Notes under the pieces: model-generated
Seen by the model: the letters and a program-made list of their open reading frames with translations, nothing else
What the model was told of the DNA's origin: nothing
The model's database searches: none
Source: Bryobacter sp. CoA8 C33
Lineage (GTDB): Bacteria; Acidobacteriota; Terriglobia; Bryobacterales; Bryobacteraceae
Assembly: GCA_019931185.1 (NCBI GenBank)
Contig: JAINDK010000049.1
Location: 1-61,205, forward strand
DNA: 61,205 nucleotides
Direction: 5' to 3'
Shown: in pieces, positions 37,315 to 46,530 of the stretch
How the letters are laid out: each line of letters starts with the position of its first letter
Numbering within the stretch: the first letter of the stretch is position 1
Made by a program: the position numbers and the translations under genes

Positions 37315-39417
37315 TTAGAGAACTAACCCAGCCAGCAGCGTCGCTCCATCCGTAGCCATCCGCATTCGAAAGCCCTGCTTCTCGAGCAACCCGCGCATGG
37401 CCCGGTTATCGGCCAGTAACTCCGCCGTCAGCCGTTTCAACCCCTCGGCCCGCCCCGCCGCGACGACGGCGGCCACCAGCGCTTTGCCGATCCCCTGACC
37501 CTGGGCCGAATCACGCACCAGGAACGCCACCTCGGCCTCCTCCATCCGCAGCGGATTCCGCTGCAGCCGCCCCACGCCCAGGATCCGGTCCTCGCGCTCC
37601 ACCACCAGCGCCAGCTCCCGCGCATAGTCGTTGAAGCACACCCGCGCCAGCCGGTCGTGGCCGATCCGCTCTTCCAGCTTCAAAAACTGCAGGTAGCGCA
37701 GATAGACGCTGCGTTCGCTCAGGTCATTGTGAAAATCCACGATCCGCCGCTCGTCCTCGGGCCGGATCGGCCGGATCAGCGCCTCCCCGCCATCGCGCAA
37801 GCGCAGCCGCTGTTCATACTGCCGCGGATAAGGCCGGATCAGGCACTTCGGCCAAAGCTCCCGCGCCAGACCCTGCGGCTGCAGCGCCCCCTCCGCCTCA
37901 CTCACCCACAAGCTCCCGTCCTGCTCCACATCCACCACCAACCGCAACTCGCGCAACACCGCCGCCTCGCTCACCAGACGCGAGACCCGCACCAGCATCT
38001 CCTCGAGCGCCGCCTGGCCCGCCGCGCTCACTACCCGCGCCAGCCGTACCCACTCCAAACCCCGCCGCGCCAGCGTTGAGGTCAAGGGGGGCAAGACCGA
38101 GACACGGTCTTCATAAACCTCGCCCACCACGCCCGCCGCCGCCACCTCCATCACCAATCCAAAATTCCCTTCCGGCCGGCTCGTCACCAAAAATTTCAGG
38201 CCCGTCCCGGACCGCGCCGCATCCCAATGCAGGCCATAGGCACTCAACAATCGCCGCAGTGGCGCGGCGCTCATCTTCCCCCGCTGCCCGTCGAGTTGGG
38301 CGATCACCGCCGTGCCATCTTCCCCCTCGCGGCCAAACACCGGCGTCTCATAAAGCCCGCTGAGGCTGCGCGAATACTGCCAGAGCCTCTCAAACACCTT
38401 CGCTGCCGTATCGGGGTACGGGAAGGTCGGAATCCGCGCCTCCGCAAGAATCGCCTCCGCTCCGCGAATCAGCTTGCCCCCCATCAACGATCCCAGCAGC
38501 GGCTTCGCATAGCCGCGGCTCGCCTCAACAATCGCCCGCGCCGTATCGGCCATCCGCGTCGCCGGCTGCGGCGTCACGATCACCAGGATCCCGTGACAAT
38601 CCTCCTCCCCGGCCAGATCCGCGATCGCGCGCCGGTAAGCCTCCGGCCCGGCCTCCCCCCCCACGTCCCGCAGGCCATGCAACTCCCCCCCGGCCAGCCG
38701 CAGCGCATCCGCCGCCAGCAGCCCCGGCCCGTTCGCGTTCGTTACAATGCCCAGCCTCGGCCCCTTGGGCCGCGGCTGCCGCTCAAGCACTTCCGCCATG
38801 TAGAACAGGTCCGCCATCCGGCTCACCCGCAACAAACCCGCCCGCCGGAAGATTGCGTCATACAACCCGTCCTTGCGCCCATCCCCGCGTCCCGGCTTCA
38901 ACACGATTACGGGCTTGGCCAGTGCGCACTCGCGCGCCGCCGAGAGAAACCGCGACACGTCCTCGACCTTCTCGAGGTACAACAACACCGATTGCGTATA
39001 GGGGTCCTCGGCCAGATAGTCCAGGCACTCCCCCAACCCGATATTCGGCGAGCGCCCCAGCGCAATGAACTTGCTGAAGCCCACCTCGTGCTCATGCGCC
39101 CAATCGAGAATCGCCGCCCCCAGCGCCCCCGATTGCGTCACAAACGCGATCCGCCCCGGCAGAATCGGCGACAGGCTCAAACAATGATGGATGCCCTCCC
39201 GCGGCGCCGCCACCCCGAAGGACTCCGGCCCTAACACCGCCAGCTCCTTCTCGGCGATCAACGCCAACTCCTCCGCGCTCAAATCCCGCGCCTCCGTCAG
39301 CAGCACCGCCGGCTTGCCCTTTTCCACCGCCTCGGCCACCGAAAACGCAATCGTCCCCGCCGCCCCGGGCCCCAGGAAATAATCCAGCACTCCGTGCTTT
39401 GGCTTTCTAGAGGACAT
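37315..39417 (-). CDS. Reduced acyl-CoA synthetase (NDP-forming)-GNAT fusion protein
   Basis: A 700-residue relative of bifunctional acetyl-CoA-synthetase/Pat-type proteins. It has a CoA-ligase core (RIAFVTQSGALGAAILDWAH; YTQSVLLYLEKV; PVIVLKPGRGDGRKDG), a weak ATP-grasp-like part (about 395-510) and a C-terminal GNAT domain (about 545-695, with QGQGIGKAL). The N-terminal CoA-binding Rossmann fold is missing or degenerate and the ATP-grasp part is short; full-length relatives are about 900 residues, so ligase activity is doubtful. It may acylate a protein or sugar. Start at ATG 39417, overlapping the permease gene by 11 bp. Its stop lies in a MITE target site. Confidence 0.75.
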   Translation of the reverse strand: MSSRKPKHGVLDYFLGPGAAGTIAFSVAEAVEKGKPAVLLTEARDLSAEELALIAEKELAVLGPESFGVAAPREGIHHCLSLSPILPGRIAFVTQSGALGAAILDWAHEHEVGFSKFIALGRSPNIGLGECLDYLAEDPYTQSVLLYLEKVEDVSRFLSAARECALAKPVIVLKPGRGDGRKDGLYDAIFRRAGLLRVSRMADLFYMAEVLERQPRPKGPRLGIVTNANGPGLLAADALRLAGGELHGLRDVGGEAGPEAYRRAIADLAGEEDCHGILVIVTPQPATRMADTARAIVEASRGYAKPLLGSLMGGKLIRGAEAILAEARIPTFPYPDTAAKVFERLWQYSRSLSGLYETPVFGREGEDGTAVIAQLDGQRGKMSAAPLRRLLSAYGLHWDAARSGTGLKFLVTSRPEGNFGLVMEVAAAGVVGEVYEDRVSVLPPLTSTLARRGLEWVRLARVVSAAGQAALEEMLVRVSRLVSEAAVLRELRLVVDVEQDGSLWVSEAEGALQPQGLARELWPKCLIRPYPRQYEQRLRLRDGGEALIRPIRPEDERRIVDFHNDLSERSVYLRYLQFLKLEERIGHDRLARVCFNDYARELALVVEREDRILGVGRLQRNPLRMEEAEVAFLVRDSAQGQGIGKALVAAVVAAGRAEGLKRLTAELLADNRAMRGLLEKQGFRMRMATDGATLLAGLVL

Positions 39418-40570
39418 CGGCAAAGCCCCGGCGGGCCCGCCGGAAGATCGCGAATCCCGTATAGAAAATGCCCAGCGACAAGACCCACAACTTACCCACC
39501 GCCCCCCAGTCCGGTTGCCGGTTCTCGAGCAAAATCGCCCGGTAGGCCCGCACCAGCACGTACAAAGGATTCTTGCCCAGCACCGGCAACAAGCCCGCCG
39601 GCAGGTTCTGGTCCGGATAGCAGATCGGCGTCAGGAAAAACCACATCGTCAACAACAATCCCATCACATACACGAGGTCCCGCACATATACCCCCCCCGC
39701 TGCCAGCACATAACAAAGCCCCGCCGTCAGCAGCAGTTGCGGGACCCACAACACCGGCAGCCACAGCGCCGTCACGGGAATCCCACCCCTCAGCCACAGC
39801 AGAAATCCGAAGAAAATCGCGCTCGCCGTCAACCCCGTCACCCACCCGGCCAAGGTTAGATTCAACGGCAATACCTCCACCGGGAAGATCATTTTCTTGA
39901 TCAGGTTCCGGTGCTCGAGCGCCGTATTCGGCCCCCGCGCCAGCGATTCGTTCATCGCCAGCCAGGGCAACATCCCGGCGAGAAAAAACAGCACATACCC
40001 GCCCGCTGTCGGATCTCCGGGAAAACGCGTCCGCAGAAATACGCCAAACACAAAGTAATAAGTCAGCATCAGCAGCAGCGGATTGAGCAACGCCCAAAAC
40101 GCATCGGCGAAACTGCCCCGGTAGCGCGAAACAATATCGCGCCGCACCATCGAAGCCATCAGATGCCGGTTGCGCCAGCACATCTCCCAAGGCCCCACCA
40201 GAATGTCCCGCGCCAGCCCCGGCCAGCGCTCCCGGCGCAATGCCCCCAGCGTCCGCACCACGCTGCGCTCCACCGCGACGCCCTGCTCGCCCACCTCGGC
40301 GTCCACCACCAGCATTGCCCCACCCTTCTCATAGCCCCAGCGCTCGCCCTCGCGCGCCGTGATGTAGAAGCGGTAGTGCCCCGGCGCCGCCGGCAATTCC
40401 ACTTCATGCTCGGCGCGCGGGCTCGCCTCCCGCCATTCCGACTCACGCAAGAACCGCCCCGACTCCGGGTCTACCCACTGGCAGGCCACCACCGCCCCAC
40501 CGCTCCACTCACTCGCCACCCGCAGCCGGTAGCCCTCCGCCGCAACCTCGTGCCGCACCAATTCAGGCAT
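39407..40570 (-). CDS. ABC-2 polysaccharide-export permease with extra N-terminal domain
   Basis: A 387-residue protein. Residues about 130-387 are a Wzm/TagG-type permease with six membrane helices and the family start MCWRNRHLMASMVRRDIVSRYRGS. Residues 1-115 form a soluble, strand-rich domain ending GHYRFYITAREGERWGYEKGG, reminiscent of the carbohydrate-binding C-terminal domain of Wzt. Normal Wzm is about 260 residues and lacks it. The permease would export a lipid-linked glycan with an ATPase partner, which is not in this window. The start at 40570 overlaps the upstream gene by 8 bp, so it is coupled to the glycosyltransferase-methyltransferase. Confidence 0.82.
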   Translation of the reverse strand: MPELVRHEVAAEGYRLRVASEWSGGAVVACQWVDPESGRFLRESEWREASPRAEHEVELPAAPGHYRFYITAREGERWGYEKGGAMLVVDAEVGEQGVAVERSVVRTLGALRRERWPGLARDILVGPWEMCWRNRHLMASMVRRDIVSRYRGSFADAFWALLNPLLLMLTYYFVFGVFLRTRFPGDPTAGGYVLFFLAGMLPWLAMNESLARGPNTALEHRNLIKKMIFPVEVLPLNLTLAGWVTGLTASAIFFGFLLWLRGGIPVTALWLPVLWVPQLLLTAGLCYVLAAGGVYVRDLVYVMGLLLTMWFFLTPICYPDQNLPAGLLPVLGKNPLYVLVRAYRAILLENRQPDWGAVGKLWVLSLGIFYTGFAIFRRARRGFADVL

Positions 40571-42536
40571 ACAGCCAACCCGGATACCGGTGCCGCACCG
40601 CTCCTGCCTTCCGCCCCACGCAGTAGATACCATCTCCCCGCAACTCTCCGCTCCAGTGATACTGCGAGAGCATGTGCGCGATCACATGATGCTCCGGATG
40701 GGGCAATTCGAGAAACTCTCCCGTCTCGAGCCGCGTCACCTCGAGGCCGGCCTCCCAGAACAGCAGATGCACCTCTCTCGGTGTGTACTCCCGGTTGTGC
40801 CTGGCCTCGGCCTCCTCGCCGTGCTGCCGCGGCAGTATGTAGGCCGGGAAAAATCCCGGATGATACCCGTTCACAATCGCGTACAGCGCCCGCAGGCTCG
40901 CCGCGTTCGGCGTCGTCAGCACCAGCGTCCCACCCGGCTTCAAGATCCGGTTGATCTCCCCCATCATGTGCATTGGATCGGCCGTCAAATGCTCGAGCAA
41001 CTCGCAGCACAACACCGTGTCAAAGCTCTCGTCCCCGTACGGAAAATGATCCTTTTCCGCGTCAAAGAGATCCACCTCGCAGACAAAACGCTCCCCCTGC
41101 CCGCTCTCGATCTCGTGCCGGTCCACTTGCCCCGCCACCCCGTAATAACAACCCCTTACATGCCCATAGCCCAGCTCATAGCGCAGCGCCGGGGTCATCT
41201 GCATGTAGGCCCCCATCTCGAGCACGCTTTGCTCCGCGCTGCCCGGCGGCACCAGCCCCAGCGTCTTGGCGATCCGCGTGATGTGCGTGTTCGTATACTC
41301 GCGCCCACCCTCGCCCTGCGCCCACTTGAGGATCTGTTCGGCTTCGATCTCCGGCCCCGGCTCGGCCGGGACGAGCCGCGGCGCCGCCGCTACATCCACG
41401 CCCCTCACCACACTTTCAAGAAACCTCACATACCGTTCCGCGGCCAGCTCCCAGGGGCACTCCCGCTCCACCCAGGCCCGCGCCCGCTCCCCGAGCGCCC
41501 GCGCCAACTCCGGCCGTTCCACAAACAGGTTCAGATACTCGAAGATCGCATCCTCCTCCCCCGTGTGCGGCGGCGCCGGCGCCTTCAGGCAGATCTCATC
41601 CGGATACTCGGCAAAGCTGCCGATCTCGGTCACCACCACGGCCTTGCCGAGCGAAAACGCCCGCAGCAGCGTCCCCGAGCTTTCCCCCACGGTCGGATAG
41701 CGCAGGTTCAACACCACGTCGCAAGCCTCGAGATAGCGGTGGAAATCCTCTTCGTCGAGATAACCGAGCACCCGCACCTGCTCCTCGATGCCCAAACCCC
41801 GCAACAAGCCCTCCACATCCAGTTCCGGATGCGCTTCCCCACACAGGATCATCCGCGCCTCGGGCCGCAACCGCACCAGCCGCCGGAAGGCCCGCAACGC
41901 CTCGGCGATCCGCTTATACGGCTTCAGAAAACCAAAAATCCCCACGAGCGGCGTGCTTGGCGCCAGCCCCAGCTTCGAGCGGTACACGTCCCGCATCGGC
42001 TGCCGCGCCGCATCCCGGTCTACCCACGCCCCATGCCAGATCCGCTCGATCGGCCCCGCAAAACCCGCCTCCCGTATCGCCCGCCCCACGCAATCGGAAT
42101 GCACGATCACCCCGCGCGCCCCCGCCAGCAAGCGCTTCAGCATCGGCACGCCCTCGTAGTCCGGCCCCACTTCGAGCCGCCTGACCCGCTCAGCGAAGTC
42201 CCGCGCCGCCGGCCCCCCTTCCCAAGCCACTTCCTCCACATACTCGTCCCAGTTCCCCCGCTTGATCGTGCGCTCCGCATGCAGATGATGCAGATTCGCC
42301 TCATGCATCACCAGCACGCCCGGATGCTCGAGCGCGCACTCATAGATCGAGGCGTGATACCCGTTGTTCCCCATCTGATAGAGCAGCACATCAAATCGGC
42401 TCAGATCTCCCGCCTCGCGCGGGTCGGCGTACACTTCGACATCCGCAAGCCCCCGCAGCGGCCCCAATAGCGCTGCCGCGTAATCCGCGATCCCGCTCCG
42501 CGCCGGCGGCAGCGGGCTGAAAAATCCCACCTTCAT
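40563..42536 (-). CDS. Glycosyltransferase (GT4)-methyltransferase fusion
   Basis: A 657-residue two-domain protein. Residues 1-385 are a GT-B glycosyltransferase: FFSPLPPARSGIADYAAALL at the start, VGIFGFLKPYKRI in the middle and the donor-site region YPTVGESSGTLLRAFSLGKAVV. Residues about 410-650 are a class I SAM methyltransferase with a changed motif I (VLEMGAYMQMT), FDTVLCCELLEHL and ILKPGGTLVLTTPN. It probably adds a sugar and a methyl group to a glycan. It starts 2 bases after the DUF3108 gene and overlaps the permease gene by 8 bp. Confidence 0.87.
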   Translation of the reverse strand: MKVGFFSPLPPARSGIADYAAALLGPLRGLADVEVYADPREAGDLSRFDVLLYQMGNNGYHASIYECALEHPGVLVMHEANLHHLHAERTIKRGNWDEYVEEVAWEGGPAARDFAERVRRLEVGPDYEGVPMLKRLLAGARGVIVHSDCVGRAIREAGFAGPIERIWHGAWVDRDAARQPMRDVYRSKLGLAPSTPLVGIFGFLKPYKRIAEALRAFRRLVRLRPEARMILCGEAHPELDVEGLLRGLGIEEQVRVLGYLDEEDFHRYLEACDVVLNLRYPTVGESSGTLLRAFSLGKAVVVTEIGSFAEYPDEICLKAPAPPHTGEEDAIFEYLNLFVERPELARALGERARAWVERECPWELAAERYVRFLESVVRGVDVAAAPRLVPAEPGPEIEAEQILKWAQGEGGREYTNTHITRIAKTLGLVPPGSAEQSVLEMGAYMQMTPALRYELGYGHVRGCYYGVAGQVDRHEIESGQGERFVCEVDLFDAEKDHFPYGDESFDTVLCCELLEHLTADPMHMMGEINRILKPGGTLVLTTPNAASLRALYAIVNGYHPGFFPAYILPRQHGEEAEARHNREYTPREVHLLFWEAGLEVTRLETGEFLELPHPEHHVIAHMLSQYHWSGELRGDGIYCVGRKAGAVRHRYPGWLYA

Positions 42537-42538
42537 TT

Positions 42539-43189
42539 CTATCTCTGCAACTCCATCGTAAACGCCCCCAAGGGCAGCGGCGCCCGCATCAACAGCGGCG
42601 TCCGCGCCGCATCCCGCCCGAAAAATAACTCGATCGTGTGCCGCGAGGCCGGCCCCTCGATCTTCACTTCAATCCGGTCCGCCGCCTCATAGGCCCCTCC
42701 GATCTGCACATTCTGCGCGCCCCCATAGAGAAAACTCAACTGATACGCCGCGCCGAAAAACGTCTGCTGCGCCCCCGGGATCCGCCCCTGCTTTAACTCC
42801 GACCGCAGATAGTGGATCATCGTCAGCGCATCCCGCCCGCAGCCGTTCAGCGGCAGCTTCGATTCCCCGCCGCGCAAGGTCTTCCGCGTCACCACCCCCG
42901 CCTCGGGCTGAAACTCCATGAGCTCTTCGCGCTTTTTCCCCCCATGGCTTAGCTTCTTCTCAAGCTTTACCGAGCAGAAGTCCCCCTTGGCCCACGCCCT
43001 CACCTCGTCTTTTACCGCGAAGCCCGGGATCGACGCCTCGAGCACCAGCTCAAACTTCGTATTCCCTTCCGCCGTCAGCACCGCCTCGCCTAGGCTCAAG
43101 CCACTCGGCCAGTTCACCGTGTAACGCAGTGTTTCCGTCGCCGCCGCCAGACTTCCCGCCGCCAGCATCATCAGCCAAATTGGTCTCAT
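42539..43189 (-). CDS. DUF3108-like exported protein
   Basis: A 216-residue protein with a signal peptide (PIWLMMLAAGSLAAATE). The body fits DUF3108: TLRYTVNWPSGLSLGEAVL at the start of the beta-rich fold and the later KLPLNGCGRDALTMIHYLRS segment. The function of this family is not known; it is an envelope protein. It is joined by an ATGA overlap to the preceding glycosyltransferase gene and lies 2 bp before the fusion gene, so it is an integral part of the glycan operon. Confidence 0.78.
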   Translation of the reverse strand: MRPIWLMMLAAGSLAAATETLRYTVNWPSGLSLGEAVLTAEGNTKFELVLEASIPGFAVKDEVRAWAKGDFCSVKLEKKLSHGGKKREELMEFQPEAGVVTRKTLRGGESKLPLNGCGRDALTMIHYLRSELKQGRIPGAQQTFFGAAYQLSFLYGGAQNVQIGGAYEAADRIEVKIEGPASRHTIELFFGRDAARTPLLMRAPLPLGAFTMELQR

Positions 43190-44346
43190 GTACTTGGGAC
43201 GGTCTGCGCGGCCTTTGCGTTTACCCGCGACCGCCTCCTCGGCTTGCCCGACACCTCGTAGTAAACCTCCAACGTCTGCCGCGCCGCCTTCTCCCAACTG
43301 AATCGCCCCGCATTCTTCAGCCCCAGCTTCTCCATCCTCTGCCGCAACCCCGTGTCGAGCAGCAGATCCCGCATCGCCACCACCAGCTCGCTCTTCTTGC
43401 CGGGATCAAACAGCACCGCCGCCGAATTCGCCACCTCCGGCATCGCCGACGTGTTCGAACACGCCACGGCCCGGCCACACGCCTGAGCCTCGAGAATCGG
43501 CAGCCCAAACCCCTCGTAGAAACTCGGGAACACAAACAGCTCCGCCGCATTGTACAAGTGCAGCAGATCCTCATCGTTCACAAAATCCGTGAAGTGGATC
43601 CGTTCCCCCAGCCCGCTGGCCCGCGCCGCCTCGTACACCCGGGGCGCAAACCACGTCGGCTTGCCCACCAGCACCAGATGGTGCGGCAGTTGCGGATGGT
43701 TCCGCACCAGTTCTTCAAACGCCGCGATCAGCCCGATCTGATTCTTGCGCGGCTGCAAGTCCCCCACGCTCAGCACATACGGCCACTGCACGCCAAACTT
43801 CTCCGACACCGTCGTAAAGGCCGTCTTCGCCGGTACCGGATGAAAATGCGGCGACACCGCGTTGTGGATCACCTCAATCCGCTCCGGCGCCACGTCATAG
43901 GCCGCCAGAATTCGCTGCCGCGAAAACTCACTTACCGTCAATACTTTCGCTGCCCGCCGGATCGTGTGCGTGACCGTCATCCGCAATTGCACCCGCCGCG
44001 CTCGCGTAAAGTACTCCGGCCGCTCGATGTAGCTCACATCGTGCACACTCACCACAAACGGCGATGGGCAAACCAAGGGCGCCGTGTATTGCACATGCAA
44101 CAAGTCCGGCCGGTCCAGCAACACCCGCTTCGTTAGATCCAGCCCCAGGCGCACAAAGGGATTCGCCGACACTTGCCGTTTCTCAAACCGGTTCGGCACC
44201 TCACTCGCCGCATACTCCGTGCACACGTAGGCGTAGAACTGAGAGTCACGATCCAGCCGGGCGTAATTCTGCAGCAGATTGCGGACGTAAACTTCATTCC
44301 CCGTAAGATGACGGCCGATAGTATGCGCGTCAATGGCAAAGCGCAT
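43186..44346 (-). CDS. Glycosyltransferase family 4 protein
   Basis: A 386-residue GT-B glycosyltransferase. The start MRFAIDAHTIGRHLTGNEVYVRNLL and the donor-site segment FVFPSFYEGFGLPILEAQACG (with the E-x7-E pattern) are typical of GT4. It acts in the cytoplasm on a lipid-linked or nascent glycan. A GAAGGAA ribosome site precedes the ATG at 44346, the only clear one in this operon. A 53-bp gap separates it from the gene before, so some internal control is possible. Confidence 0.9.
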   Translation of the reverse strand: MRFAIDAHTIGRHLTGNEVYVRNLLQNYARLDRDSQFYAYVCTEYAASEVPNRFEKRQVSANPFVRLGLDLTKRVLLDRPDLLHVQYTAPLVCPSPFVVSVHDVSYIERPEYFTRARRVQLRMTVTHTIRRAAKVLTVSEFSRQRILAAYDVAPERIEVIHNAVSPHFHPVPAKTAFTTVSEKFGVQWPYVLSVGDLQPRKNQIGLIAAFEELVRNHPQLPHHLVLVGKPTWFAPRVYEAARASGLGERIHFTDFVNDEDLLHLYNAAELFVFPSFYEGFGLPILEAQACGRAVACSNTSAMPEVANSAAVLFDPGKKSELVVAMRDLLLDTGLRQRMEKLGLKNAGRFSWEKAARQTLEVYYEVSGKPRRRSRVNAKAAQTVPST

Positions 44347-44399
44347 GAGAGTTCCTTCAGTATAGTCCAATCCCCGGGAAACTCTTCTCCCCCGATTTG

Positions 44400-45551
44400 T
44401 TACAACTCCAGCAAATCGAGTGCTTTCCAGGCACTGCGCCAGTTGTATTCCTGCTCATACAGCCGCCGCCCCGCCTCCCCCAGCGCCCGCTGCCGGTCCT
44501 CATCCCGCACCAGCCCCACAATCGCCTCGGCAAAAGCCCGCCCCTCATCGGCCACCACCACCTCCCCGCGCAGCCGCAAGCCCTCGGCGCCCAGCCCGGT
44601 CGAAACCACCGGCACCCCCGCGGCAAATGCCTCCAGAATCTTCAATCGCGTCCCCGACCCCGACCGAATCGGCGCCACGGCCACGCGCGCCCGCGCAATC
44701 TCCGCTACCGCATCCTCCACCGGCCCCACCCGGTCCACATTCCGCCCTCCCGCCGGCGCACACTCCACCTCCTTGCCCACCAGCCGCAGCCTTAACTCCG
44801 GCTCCTCCTCAATCACCTTCGGCCAAACCTCGGCAAGAAACCACTTCAACCCCAACTGATTCGGAGCATAGGCGAAGTTGCCGCTAAACACCACGGCCCA
44901 CTCCCGGGGTGCCACCTCGATGCGCTCCCGCCACGGCGCCGTGTTCGGCACCACGCTCACCCGCCGCCCCTTCACCTTCGCCGCATCCGCCTCCGAGGTC
45001 ACGACCAGCCGGTCAAAGCCCGCGAGCCAGCGCCGCTCCTCGCGCCGCGAACATCCGGCAAAGCGCCGCCACAACAACGATGCCGGCGCAGTCCGCTCGA
45101 GCGACTCATAATAAGCCGACTCGACGTTGTGCAGATCCAGCACCAGCCGCTCGCCTGCTCCCCGCAGCAGTTCCCCGTATTGCGCCCCCCAAAAATGCTC
45201 CACCCACACCAAGTCCCAGCGCCGGCCCCGCACCCACTCCCCGATCTCCCTGTCCCGCCCCCCAAATCGGTCCACCAGAGGCGTCACCCCCCGCATCGCC
45301 CGCTTCGCATTCCGCCACACCTTCGCCCTCATCCCCTTGTCATGCCGCGGCAACTCAAGCCGCAACACTTCCCCGAACATCCCCTCCGGATAAGCGCCCA
45401 CCGGGTCTGTCTCGCCTGCGAGCGAGAAGTGAATCGCGCTCAACTTATAGCGTTCCCGCAGCCATTCGAGAATCGATGCCGTGCGTAGCGGCCCACCCCC
45501 CATCACCGGGTAGGCCGCCTCCGGCAGCACCACCAGCGCCCTAGGCCGCAT
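44400..45551 (-). CDS. Glycosyltransferase family 4-like protein
   Basis: A 383-residue glycosyltransferase. The N-terminus RALVVLPEAAYPVMGGGPLRTASIL is the acceptor-side Rossmann fold and APIRSGSGTRLKILEAFAAGVPVVST is the donor-site motif. The segment GNFAYAPNQLGLKWFLAEVWP is seen in glycosyltransferases of exopolysaccharide clusters. The ATG at 45551 is chosen, overlapping the previous gene by 11 bp; an upstream in-frame start would extend the overlap. Confidence 0.88.
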   Translation of the reverse strand: MRPRALVVLPEAAYPVMGGGPLRTASILEWLRERYKLSAIHFSLAGETDPVGAYPEGMFGEVLRLELPRHDKGMRAKVWRNAKRAMRGVTPLVDRFGGRDREIGEWVRGRRWDLVWVEHFWGAQYGELLRGAGERLVLDLHNVESAYYESLERTAPASLLWRRFAGCSRREERRWLAGFDRLVVTSEADAAKVKGRRVSVVPNTAPWRERIEVAPREWAVVFSGNFAYAPNQLGLKWFLAEVWPKVIEEEPELRLRLVGKEVECAPAGGRNVDRVGPVEDAVAEIARARVAVAPIRSGSGTRLKILEAFAAGVPVVSTGLGAEGLRLRGEVVVADEGRAFAEAIVGLVRDEDRQRALGEAGRRLYEQEYNWRSAWKALDLLEL

Positions 45552-46530
45552 CACGGCACCTCTCATACAACTCACGCATCGCGCGTGCCGTCTTTCGCCA
45601 ATCAAACTCAGCGGCCCGCGCCCGCCCCTTTTCCCCCCAGCCCCCCTCCTGCCTCACCTGCTTCACCCGCGCCGCCCACTCCGCCGCCTCCCCGGCATAC
45701 AGCACCGCATCGGCCCCCACCTCCCGGTGCGCCGCGATCGGCGAAGCGATCACCGGCGCCCCGCACCGCATCGCCTCGAGCACCGGCAAGCCAAAACCCT
45801 CATACCGCGACGGACACAATACCGCCGCTGCTCCCCCCATCCATCCCGCCAGCTCTGCTTCCGCCACGACCCCCAGCTCCTTCACTCCCTCTCCCGCCGG
45901 CGCCCGGTAGCCCTCCCTGACCGCTCCAATCAGGTACAGCGGCATCACCACCCCCTCTGCCCGCAGCAGCCGCTGCATCTCCACCAGCACCTCCACATTC
46001 TTGCGCCCCTCGATCGTGCCGACATGCAGCAGGTACGGCTCGCCCTCCCGCTTTACCGGCTCGAAGCGCGGCCCTGCCCCCAGGCCGATGCTCACTACCC
46101 GCTCCTCCGGCCAGCCAAAGCGCTCGATCACCTCCCGCCGCACCGCCTCCGTTGGCGTATGCACAAAGGCCGGCACCCGCCAGCGCAACAACCACCCCGC
46201 CCGCTGCCTCACCCGCCGCGATCCCTCCCCCGGCATCCACCACGGCGACAAATCATGCACCGTCATCACACTCGGCCCTCCCCCCAGATAGGGCACCGCG
46301 AAGTCCGTCCCATGAAAGACCTCGATCCCCTCCCGCCGGATCGCCTGGCGCAGCCCGTACAACCACCACTTTCGCGCCCACCCCCGCGGTCGCGGCTCAA
46401 ATTGATCCGACATCAGCACATACTCGTCCTGGCGGAACTCCTCCCGCAGTGCCCCCAAAAGCTCTTCGGTAAACCGCCGGATCCCTCCCAACGGACCCGC
46501 CATCGGCGTTCCGTCAAGCCCCACCCGCAT
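45541..46530 (-). CDS. Glycosyltransferase family 4 protein
   Basis: A 329-residue GT-B glycosyltransferase. MRVGLDGTPMAGPLGGIRRF starts the acceptor fold, HVGTIEGRKNVEVLVE the donor fold, and LCPSRYEGFGLPVLEAMRCG holds the E-x7-E nucleotide-sugar site. Like its neighbours it should add a hexose to the cluster's glycan, with sugar identity unknown. It overlaps the MFS gene by 17 bp. Confidence 0.9.
   Translation of the reverse strand: MRVGLDGTPMAGPLGGIRRFTEELLGALREEFRQDEYVLMSDQFEPRPRGWARKWWLYGLRQAIRREGIEVFHGTDFAVPYLGGGPSVMTVHDLSPWWMPGEGSRRVRQRAGWLLRWRVPAFVHTPTEAVRREVIERFGWPEERVVSIGLGAGPRFEPVKREGEPYLLHVGTIEGRKNVEVLVEMQRLLRAEGVVMPLYLIGAVREGYRAPAGEGVKELGVVAEAELAGWMGGAAAVLCPSRYEGFGLPVLEAMRCGAPVIASPIAAHREVGADAVLYAGEAAEWAARVKQVRQEGGWGEKGRARAAEFDWRKTARAMRELYERCRDAA

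Follow-up and report, generated by a model that had tools for sequence, protein, structure and literature searches.

A glycan-export permease with an N-terminal extension

The window (the whole 61,205-nucleotide stretch analysed here) corresponds to contig C123 in the 5.05-Mb draft genome of Bryobacter sp. CoA8 C33 (138 contigs, 97.66% complete). Its reverse strand carries a gene for what we class, by homology, as a Wzm/TarG-type ABC-2 permease of the ATP-binding cassette (ABC) exporters, lying directly after a gene that fuses a GT4 glycosyltransferase (GT) to a methyltransferase. ABC exporters of capped O-antigen-type glycans check their cargo through a domain borne by the ATPase. An earlier note on this DNA proposed that the cap reader had here moved from the ATPase, Wzt, to the permease, and that the capping enzyme had been fused to a glycosyltransferase. 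Three features carry the argument:

40250-40570, reverse strand: N-terminal immunoglobulin (Ig)-like beta-sandwich domain of the permease, residues 1-107 counted from the ATG at 40570 (AlphaFold2 model, conservation in the family, and hhalign probability of 99.5% to the FW-like set described below).
39410-40249, reverse strand: linker, interface helices and Wzm/TarG-like ABC-2 membrane part of the permease (PF01061, 51.6 bits; PDB relatives 6jbh and 6m96; helices in the full-length model, mean pLDDT 76.1).
40563-42536, reverse strand: GT4-methyltransferase fusion of 657 amino acids (Glycos_transf_1 at residues 183-355, 59.4 bits; Methyltransf_23 at residues 493-602, 45.9 bits, cut-off 27).

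The permease open reading frame spans 39407-40633 and encodes 408 amino acids when counted from its first ATG. Translation probably begins instead at the ATG at 40570 (MPELV...), giving 387 amino acids, because two orthologues with a called frame of 390 amino acids (L016 and L017) open at the equivalent methionine. With this start the permease shares exactly 8 bp with the end of the upstream fusion gene at 40563, the very overlap that the earlier note had reported. The ABC2_membrane match covers residues 161-368 of the 408-residue form (51.6 bits against a cut-off of 26.9), and the nearest relatives in the PDB are TarG (6jbh_C, E 8.4e-18) and Wzm of A. aeolicus (6m96_B, E 9.7e-17). Because the alignments with these two proteins begin only at residues 133 and 134 of the 387-residue form, we place the extension at about 132 residues, made up of a domain of about 107 and a linker, which is close to the roughly 115 extra residues noted earlier.

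For residues 1-107, AlphaFold2 run with three sequences predicted a beta-sandwich with a mean pLDDT of 90.9 and a pTM of 0.82, bearing out the earlier description of this region as strand-rich. The model contains eight predicted strands (residues 4-12, 15-22, 27-33, 40-43, 52-58, 64-74, 86-93 and 98-106), and the full-length model agrees closely with it in the secondary structure of the domain. When the model was compared with the PDB using Foldseek, the first-ranked entry was chain A of 8dl0, the Wzt of the A. aeolicus WzmWzt transporter, as a weak match (E 4.1e-3, query-normalised TM score 0.54). The related A. aeolicus entries 8dku and 8dne came fourth and ninth, and 8dky, the isolated carbohydrate-binding domain of Wzt with 3-O-methylmannose, came 21st. 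Across 18 aligned domain sequences D34, P60, G64, Y66 and W78 are invariant. The domain is shorter in the window's genus and in a few other orthologues (97-113 residues, as against about 117-124). Two truncated frames, L050 and L058, were left out of the domain set and of the identity counts.

Orthologues of the permease (E <= 2.0e-80) were found in 99 of the 121 genomes of the family Bryobacteraceae. The alignment begins after residue 144 of the 408-residue form in only four of these (G019, G076, G115 and G117), so orthologues in 95 of the 121 genomes align the extension in part or whole. Two of the 99 have frames too short to hold it, at 270 (G019) and 290 (G117) amino acids. The acidobacterial metagenome-assembled relatives L059 and L060 are 70% and 47% identical. 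Eight related loci were also considered, and six of them (from Bacillota, Methylophilaceae, two Klebsiella-labelled entries, Alcanivoracaceae and an actinobacterium) were set aside, the membrane part alone being aligned.

The GT-methyltransferase gene lies immediately before the permease in 20 of 23 neighbourhoods. Another neighbourhood, L070, begins inside that gene at a contig edge, and in the remaining two (L071 and L086) the permease stands in a different context. Full or near-full-length alignment to the fusion was obtained in 19 of 20 neighbourhoods; in L060 the best alignment spans the GT part alone, with both parts still in one frame. The glycine motif for S-adenosylmethionine (SAM) is non-canonical, reading EMGAY, EMGSY or EMGTY instead of E/DXGXGXG in all 20 sequences in which the region aligned (the window and 19 others), and the methyltransferase stretches beyond it are well conserved. 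The Pfam scan, taken to E 1, gave 12 matches, none of them to a kinase family. The fused capping enzyme of the earlier note thus stands as a real and conserved GT4-methyltransferase fusion, one that lacks a glycine-rich SAM motif and a listed kinase domain; we infer that it caps by methylation. Such a fusion is not new as a kind, because ORF6 of Klebsiella O7 joins methyltransferase and GT modules in one protein (PMC11231755).

Upstream and downstream of this pair lie five further genes:

42539-43297, reverse strand: DUF3108 protein between the GTs and the fusion gene (PF11306, 59.5 bits; order conserved).
43186-44370, reverse strand: GT4 glycosyltransferase GT_A (PF00534, 108.4 bits; conserved position).
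44400-45605, reverse strand: GT4-type glycosyltransferase GT_B (PF13692, 78.3 bits; position conserved where present).
45541-46530, reverse strand: GT4-type glycosyltransferase GT_C (PF13692, 69.5 bits; position conserved where present).
37315-39423, reverse strand: acyl-CoA-synthetase-like/GNAT fusion directly downstream of the permease (Succ_CoA_lig, 127.4 bits; GNAT, 52.9 bits).

The order GT_A, DUF3108, fusion, permease is kept in 19 of the 23 neighbourhoods; L060 has GTs and the fusion and no DUF3108 match. The DUF3108 protein thus holds a conserved position between glycosyltransferases and the fusion enzyme, and its true start is probably further downstream than listed, because the listed TTG start overlaps the next gene. 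The acyl-CoA-synthetase-like/GNAT gene overlaps the end of the permease by 17 bp. It occurs there in four of the five same-genus neighbourhoods (L059, L067, L068 and L069, with L070 the exception) and never in the other 18, and it is probably not part of the export module.

The family of the N-terminal domain

Searches of NCBIfam, PDB sequences and Pfam with the domain returned nothing decisive. Among the 18 aligned members, six touch PF16158 (N_BRCA1_IG, the FW domain) weakly, with a best E of 0.0012, which makes it the most-touched Pfam family; Wzt_C (PF14524) is not among the seven Pfam families listed for these members. A profile of the domain, run over 396 genomes of the phylum, gave matches in 66, two of them from the window's family. 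We scanned 28 of the proteins from other families (L135-L162, many of them cut by the 1.5-kb flanks; thresholds 1e-3 or 1e-5). Five of the 28 have a methyltransferase domain, three an O-antigen ligase (Wzy_C) domain, four a sulfatase domain and four a glycoside-hydrolase-like domain, with one of the sulfatases and one of the hydrolase-like matches just below cut-off. N_BRCA1_IG was listed in eight, six of them above cut-off (for example 45.9 bits against 28), and five of these eight also belong to the groups just named; nine of the 28 had no match at all. Where a partner domain is recognised, then, the relatives of the domain sit mostly on envelope- or glycan-type enzymes, to judge by their Pfam matches. 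In O-antigen ligases the FW-like Ig domain lies inside the chain, and the whole appears to be a little-described domain family of envelope-glycan proteins. For the 28, as far as the loci contain these proteins, no ABC-2 permease was listed.

In local mode, hhalign aligned the permease domain with the FW-like set at 99.5% (E 2.6e-22, 114 columns), the set itself having been collected using a profile of the permease domain. On these comparisons we class the permease domain as an FW/N_BRCA1_IG-like Ig domain. The FW-like set in turn aligned with the Wzt_C domains of the family at 85.6% (E 5.5e-6, score 40.1, 116 columns), and the combined set did so at 84.2% (score 39.0, 104 columns). Shuffling columns gave maximum scores of 28.9 and 22.9 for the FW-like set (60 shuffles), and of 17.1 for the combined set and 18.0 for the domain alone (100 shuffles each). 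One of 60 earlier shuffles of the domain alone had scored 133.9, which we take as an artefact in view of the 100-shuffle rerun, its cause not being explained. Reversed columns scored 14.5 (FW-like), 13.6 (combined) and 13.5 (domain alone), and a control beta-sandwich set of seven carboxypeptidase-regulatory-like domains scored 20.9, 22.7 and 20.9 against the same three sets and 21.4 against Wzt_C. Given the control scores, the FW-like and combined sets stand clear and the domain alone, at 25.4, only just does.

FW-like and Wzt_C domains are therefore probably distant relatives, as far as such profiles tell. Assigning the permease domain directly to Wzt_C was rejected, hhalign giving 1.6-7.1% per Wzt paralogue and 16% for the pooled paralogues. 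The 'Wzt-C-like' stretch that the earlier note had picked out (GHYRFY...W) accordingly holds at the level of the superfamily and fails as a family assignment, there being no Wzt_C profile match.

Wzt-type ATPases encoded elsewhere in the genome

As the earlier note had observed, the window holds no ATPase gene for this permease: tblastn with three Wzt proteins found nothing Wzt-like in it at E 1e-3. In all 23 neighbourhoods the 6 kb on either side of the permease, so far as the flanks extend (less than 1 kb on one side in L069, L070 and L086), likewise gave no Wzt-like match to the three queries. Three generic ABC ATPases, matching at 26-32% identity and with no more than 81 bits, were located at distances of 6.3-7.7 kb in L059, L083 and L060. 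That the permease gene is unlinked to Wzt describes the arrangement only, and a functional connection is not thereby excluded.

The genome encodes three Wzt_C-bearing proteins: WZT_B on contig C121, WZT_C on contig C125 and a degenerate one, WZTdeg, on contig C13. A search with the Wzt ATPase domain found only WZT_B and WZT_C to be close, and likewise two proteins in genome G001, before the matches fell to about 80 bits and about 31% identity. In both genomes the two Wzt-type ATPases keep their own Wzt_C domains. The earlier note had suggested looking in this genome for a Wzt without its C-terminal domain, and had named a full-length Wzt as the outcome that would undo its proposal; the full-length form is what we found.

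To ask which Wzt travels with the permease, we compared presence across the 121 family genomes. WZT_C occurs in 92 of the 99 genomes with the permease and 3 of the 22 without it, WZT_B in 87 of 99 and 13 of 22, and WZTdeg in 76 of 99 and 5 of 22. When each genus is represented by a single genome, the corresponding counts are 58 of 62 and 3 of 14 for WZT_C, 58 of 62 and 7 of 14 for WZT_B, and 48 of 62 and 3 of 14 for WZTdeg. The count for WZT_C includes fragments at contig edges (G024, G042, G065 and G101), and a strict count is 88 of 99 versus 3 of 22. Presence was scored by hand, each cut-off being set where orthologues separate from paralogues (about 1e-150 for WZT_B; about 1e-47 for WZTdeg, to which one shorter fragment, in G013, was added), and the Fisher tests ignore relatedness save in the one-genome-per-genus version. 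Genome G095, alone among the three of its genus, lacks both the permease and WZT_C. Each of the three Wzts is thus associated with the permease, and the association is strongest for WZT_C, a full-length Wzt with a cap-binding domain of its own, which makes it the likely partner. WZT_B was rejected as the partner, being present in 13 of the 22 permease-less genomes.

At WZT_C no permease is recognisable, and none was recognised in the 20-kb stretch around WZT_B. There, WZT_B (L025:9888-11291) is followed by a methyltransferase (L002:1973-3259) and then by glycosyltransferase-like genes. This methyltransferase looks, from its sequence, to have a long coiled-coil-like tail, and it resembles a WbdD-type terminator more than the window's fusion does. 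A second Wzm-like permease of 269 amino acids, without the extension, lies near a contig end (C52:1914-2675, L028), and a second Wzm-like permease without an adjoining Wzt also occurs in G001 (L117:9943-10752) and in L121 and L132. Exporter subunits thus seem to be scattered over the genome in Bryobacteraceae, and one Wzt could possibly serve both permeases.

WZTdeg (G000:C13, L001:1087-1926, forward strand) has relatives that include L092, L095 and L097, and by the chosen cut-off it is present in 81 of the 121 family genomes. The ABC signature is missing in all 16 of its rows, which represent 12 distinct genes because overlapping loci contribute four duplicate rows. Of the 12, three (L102, L104 and L105) retain the Walker A lysine, which was not seen in the remaining nine; Walker B is degenerate. 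Its median identity is 32.9% in the ATPase part and 62.9% in the Wzt_C domain (12 distinct sequences). The pattern is the reverse in WZT_C, at 65.9% and 43.6% (9 sequences), and WZT_B shows 70.7% and 64.7% (13 sequences); L089 and L094, orthologues of WZT_C first labelled as WZT_B, were excluded from the WZT_B identity count and kept in the hhalign WZT_B set. Because free Wzt_C is reported to restore transport in trans, it is reasonable, by analogy, to regard WZTdeg as a candidate trans-acting cap reader.

Possible cargo recognition on the permease, and comparison with known systems

Our tentative best explanation, which we hold at a little under even confidence, is that a Wzm-type permease gained an N-terminal Ig-like recognition or docking module that supplements the cap reader of an ATPase encoded elsewhere, most likely WZT_C. 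In outline, a Wzm-type glycan-export permease would have acquired an FW/N_BRCA1_IG-like beta-sandwich at its N terminus. By analogy with Wzm, this domain would lie in the cytoplasm beside the channel entrance; in the A. aeolicus transporter, Wzm has its N-terminal interface helix, together with the loop leading to the first transmembrane segment, at the cytosolic channel entrance (PMC9445017). The ATPase would come from an unlinked gene, most probably the orphan full-length Wzt on contig 125 (WZT_C). The extra domain would then provide, on the permease itself, a second site at which the lipid-linked glycan or the enzymes that make it are recognised or docked, helping to bring the glycan produced by the neighbouring GT4 enzymes and the fusion to the gate through contact with its end or its backbone. 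The permease domain would thus supplement the ATPase's cap reader rather than replace it. According to PMC9445017, Wzt_C binds a methylated cap and can act in trans, the free domain restoring transport.

Several observations weigh against this explanation. The FW domains with described ligands bind proteins (PMC9233695 and PMC9582228). The window's domain alone matches no Pfam family. Foldseek found no match in the PDB at E <= 1e-3, and VIA-align leads with generic Ig-like folds, fibronectin type III domains (Z 9.7); Wzt and FW structures are absent from its 50 rows, which excludes nothing. The permease domains alone reached only 16.2% with pooled Wzt_C, over 37 columns (the score of 25.4 given above). 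In global mode the hhalign probabilities against Wzt_C drop to 48.5% for the FW-like set, 63.3% for the combined set and 3.3% for the domain alone, and the combined set reaches 58.5%, 17.6% and 13.6% with the single Wzt paralogues. The domain also evolves fast, with a median pairwise identity of 33.0% as against 60.8% for the membrane part (33 sequences), a rate that fits a ligand differing from species to species and also fits weak constraint. Finally, the partnership with WZT_C is one of co-occurrence only, with seven of the 99 permease genomes lacking WZT_C and three of the 22 permease-less genomes having it.

The domain may serve to read the glycan or may instead dock with proteins. If it is a docking module, it would tether the permease to the fusion enzyme or to the remote Wzt and so couple synthesis to export without reading the glycan. 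In Nbr1 of C. thermophilum the FW domain has the protein Ams1 as its binding partner (PMC9233695), the prominence of PF16158 in the domain alignment (6 of 18, best E 0.0012) points the same way, and fast divergence of the domain fits co-evolution with a partner; with the candidate ATPases encoded elsewhere, a docking aid would therefore be useful. Set against this are the phylum relatives that carry the domain together with a methyltransferase (5 of 28), Wzy_C (3 of 28), a sulfatase (4 of 28) or a glycoside-hydrolase-like domain (4 of 28), as well as the top, albeit weak, Foldseek match to Wzt. We consider the docking explanation possible but on balance doubtful. A structural or membrane-surface adapter, or a weakly constrained relic of the lineage, would need no ligand at all; the low conservation of the extension, its shorter version in the window's genus and the two orthologue frames among 99 that are too short to hold it (G019 and G117) could be read this way. 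The extension is nonetheless aligned in 95 of the 121 genomes and keeps its five invariant residues in 18 sequences, which makes this account quite unlikely.

The original proposal, that the Wzt_C cap reader was relocated to the permease and that the partner ATPase is a Wzt without Wzt_C, draws on the distant kinship of the two domains and on family members that have a Wzt-type ATPase with no Wzt_C match listed, namely a 313-aa frame in G062:C22 and a 279-aa protein in G017 (C10, L125:14450-15289). The G017 protein adjoins a permease of its own (stretch L125:14450-15977); G017 also has the extended permease and no WZT_C. The idea of a move fails, since both Wzt-type ATPases of this genome and of G001 carry Wzt_C and the Wzt that co-occurs best, the likely partner, is full length and able to supply a cap-binding domain itself. 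We regard relocation as largely refuted in silico and very improbable. A more elaborate arrangement extends the supplementing module: the exporter would be split over three unlinked loci, its cargo would be read by three Ig-like domains (on the permease, on WZT_C and, in trans, on WZTdeg), and WZTdeg could pair with WZT_C in an asymmetric transporter. This elaboration we think unlikely.

Wzm permeases and Ig-like accessory domains are each known, and their combination seems new: the extended-permease architecture was not found described in the literature searched, which covered titles and the openings of abstracts, with subscription journals mostly outside it. If the supplementing-module explanation is true, a permease with its own Ig-like domain and a remote ATPase, perhaps with a pseudo-ATPase as well, would show that several subunits can share in recognising the cargo, and the system would allow permease-side recognition to be tested by simple domain deletion. 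The finding also brings FW-like domains, familiar chiefly from autophagy receptors, into the envelope-glycan machinery of bacteria.

The closest structural parallel is the WzmWzt transporter of A. aeolicus, which likewise combines a Wzm/TarG-like membrane part with a beta-sandwich on the transporter, here presumably cytoplasmic, and with the export of a lipid-linked glycan, which we assume here. There, however, the sugar-binding domain forms the C-terminal end of the ATPase, whereas here the extra domain is N-terminal on the permease and differently classified, the Wzt-type ATPases keep their own Wzt_C, and the genes are unlinked. The FW/N_BRCA1_IG domains (PF16158) share the Ig-like beta-sandwich and, through the bacterial FW-like set, the hhalign match of 99.5%; unlike them, the window's domain is unmatched by the family model, and the functions described for FW domains are in eukaryotic protein binding. 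With WbdD of E. coli O9a and ORF6 of Klebsiella O7 the window's fusion has in common a methyltransferase module linked to glycan assembly, and it differs from WbdD in its non-canonical SAM motif and in that no kinase domain was listed for it.

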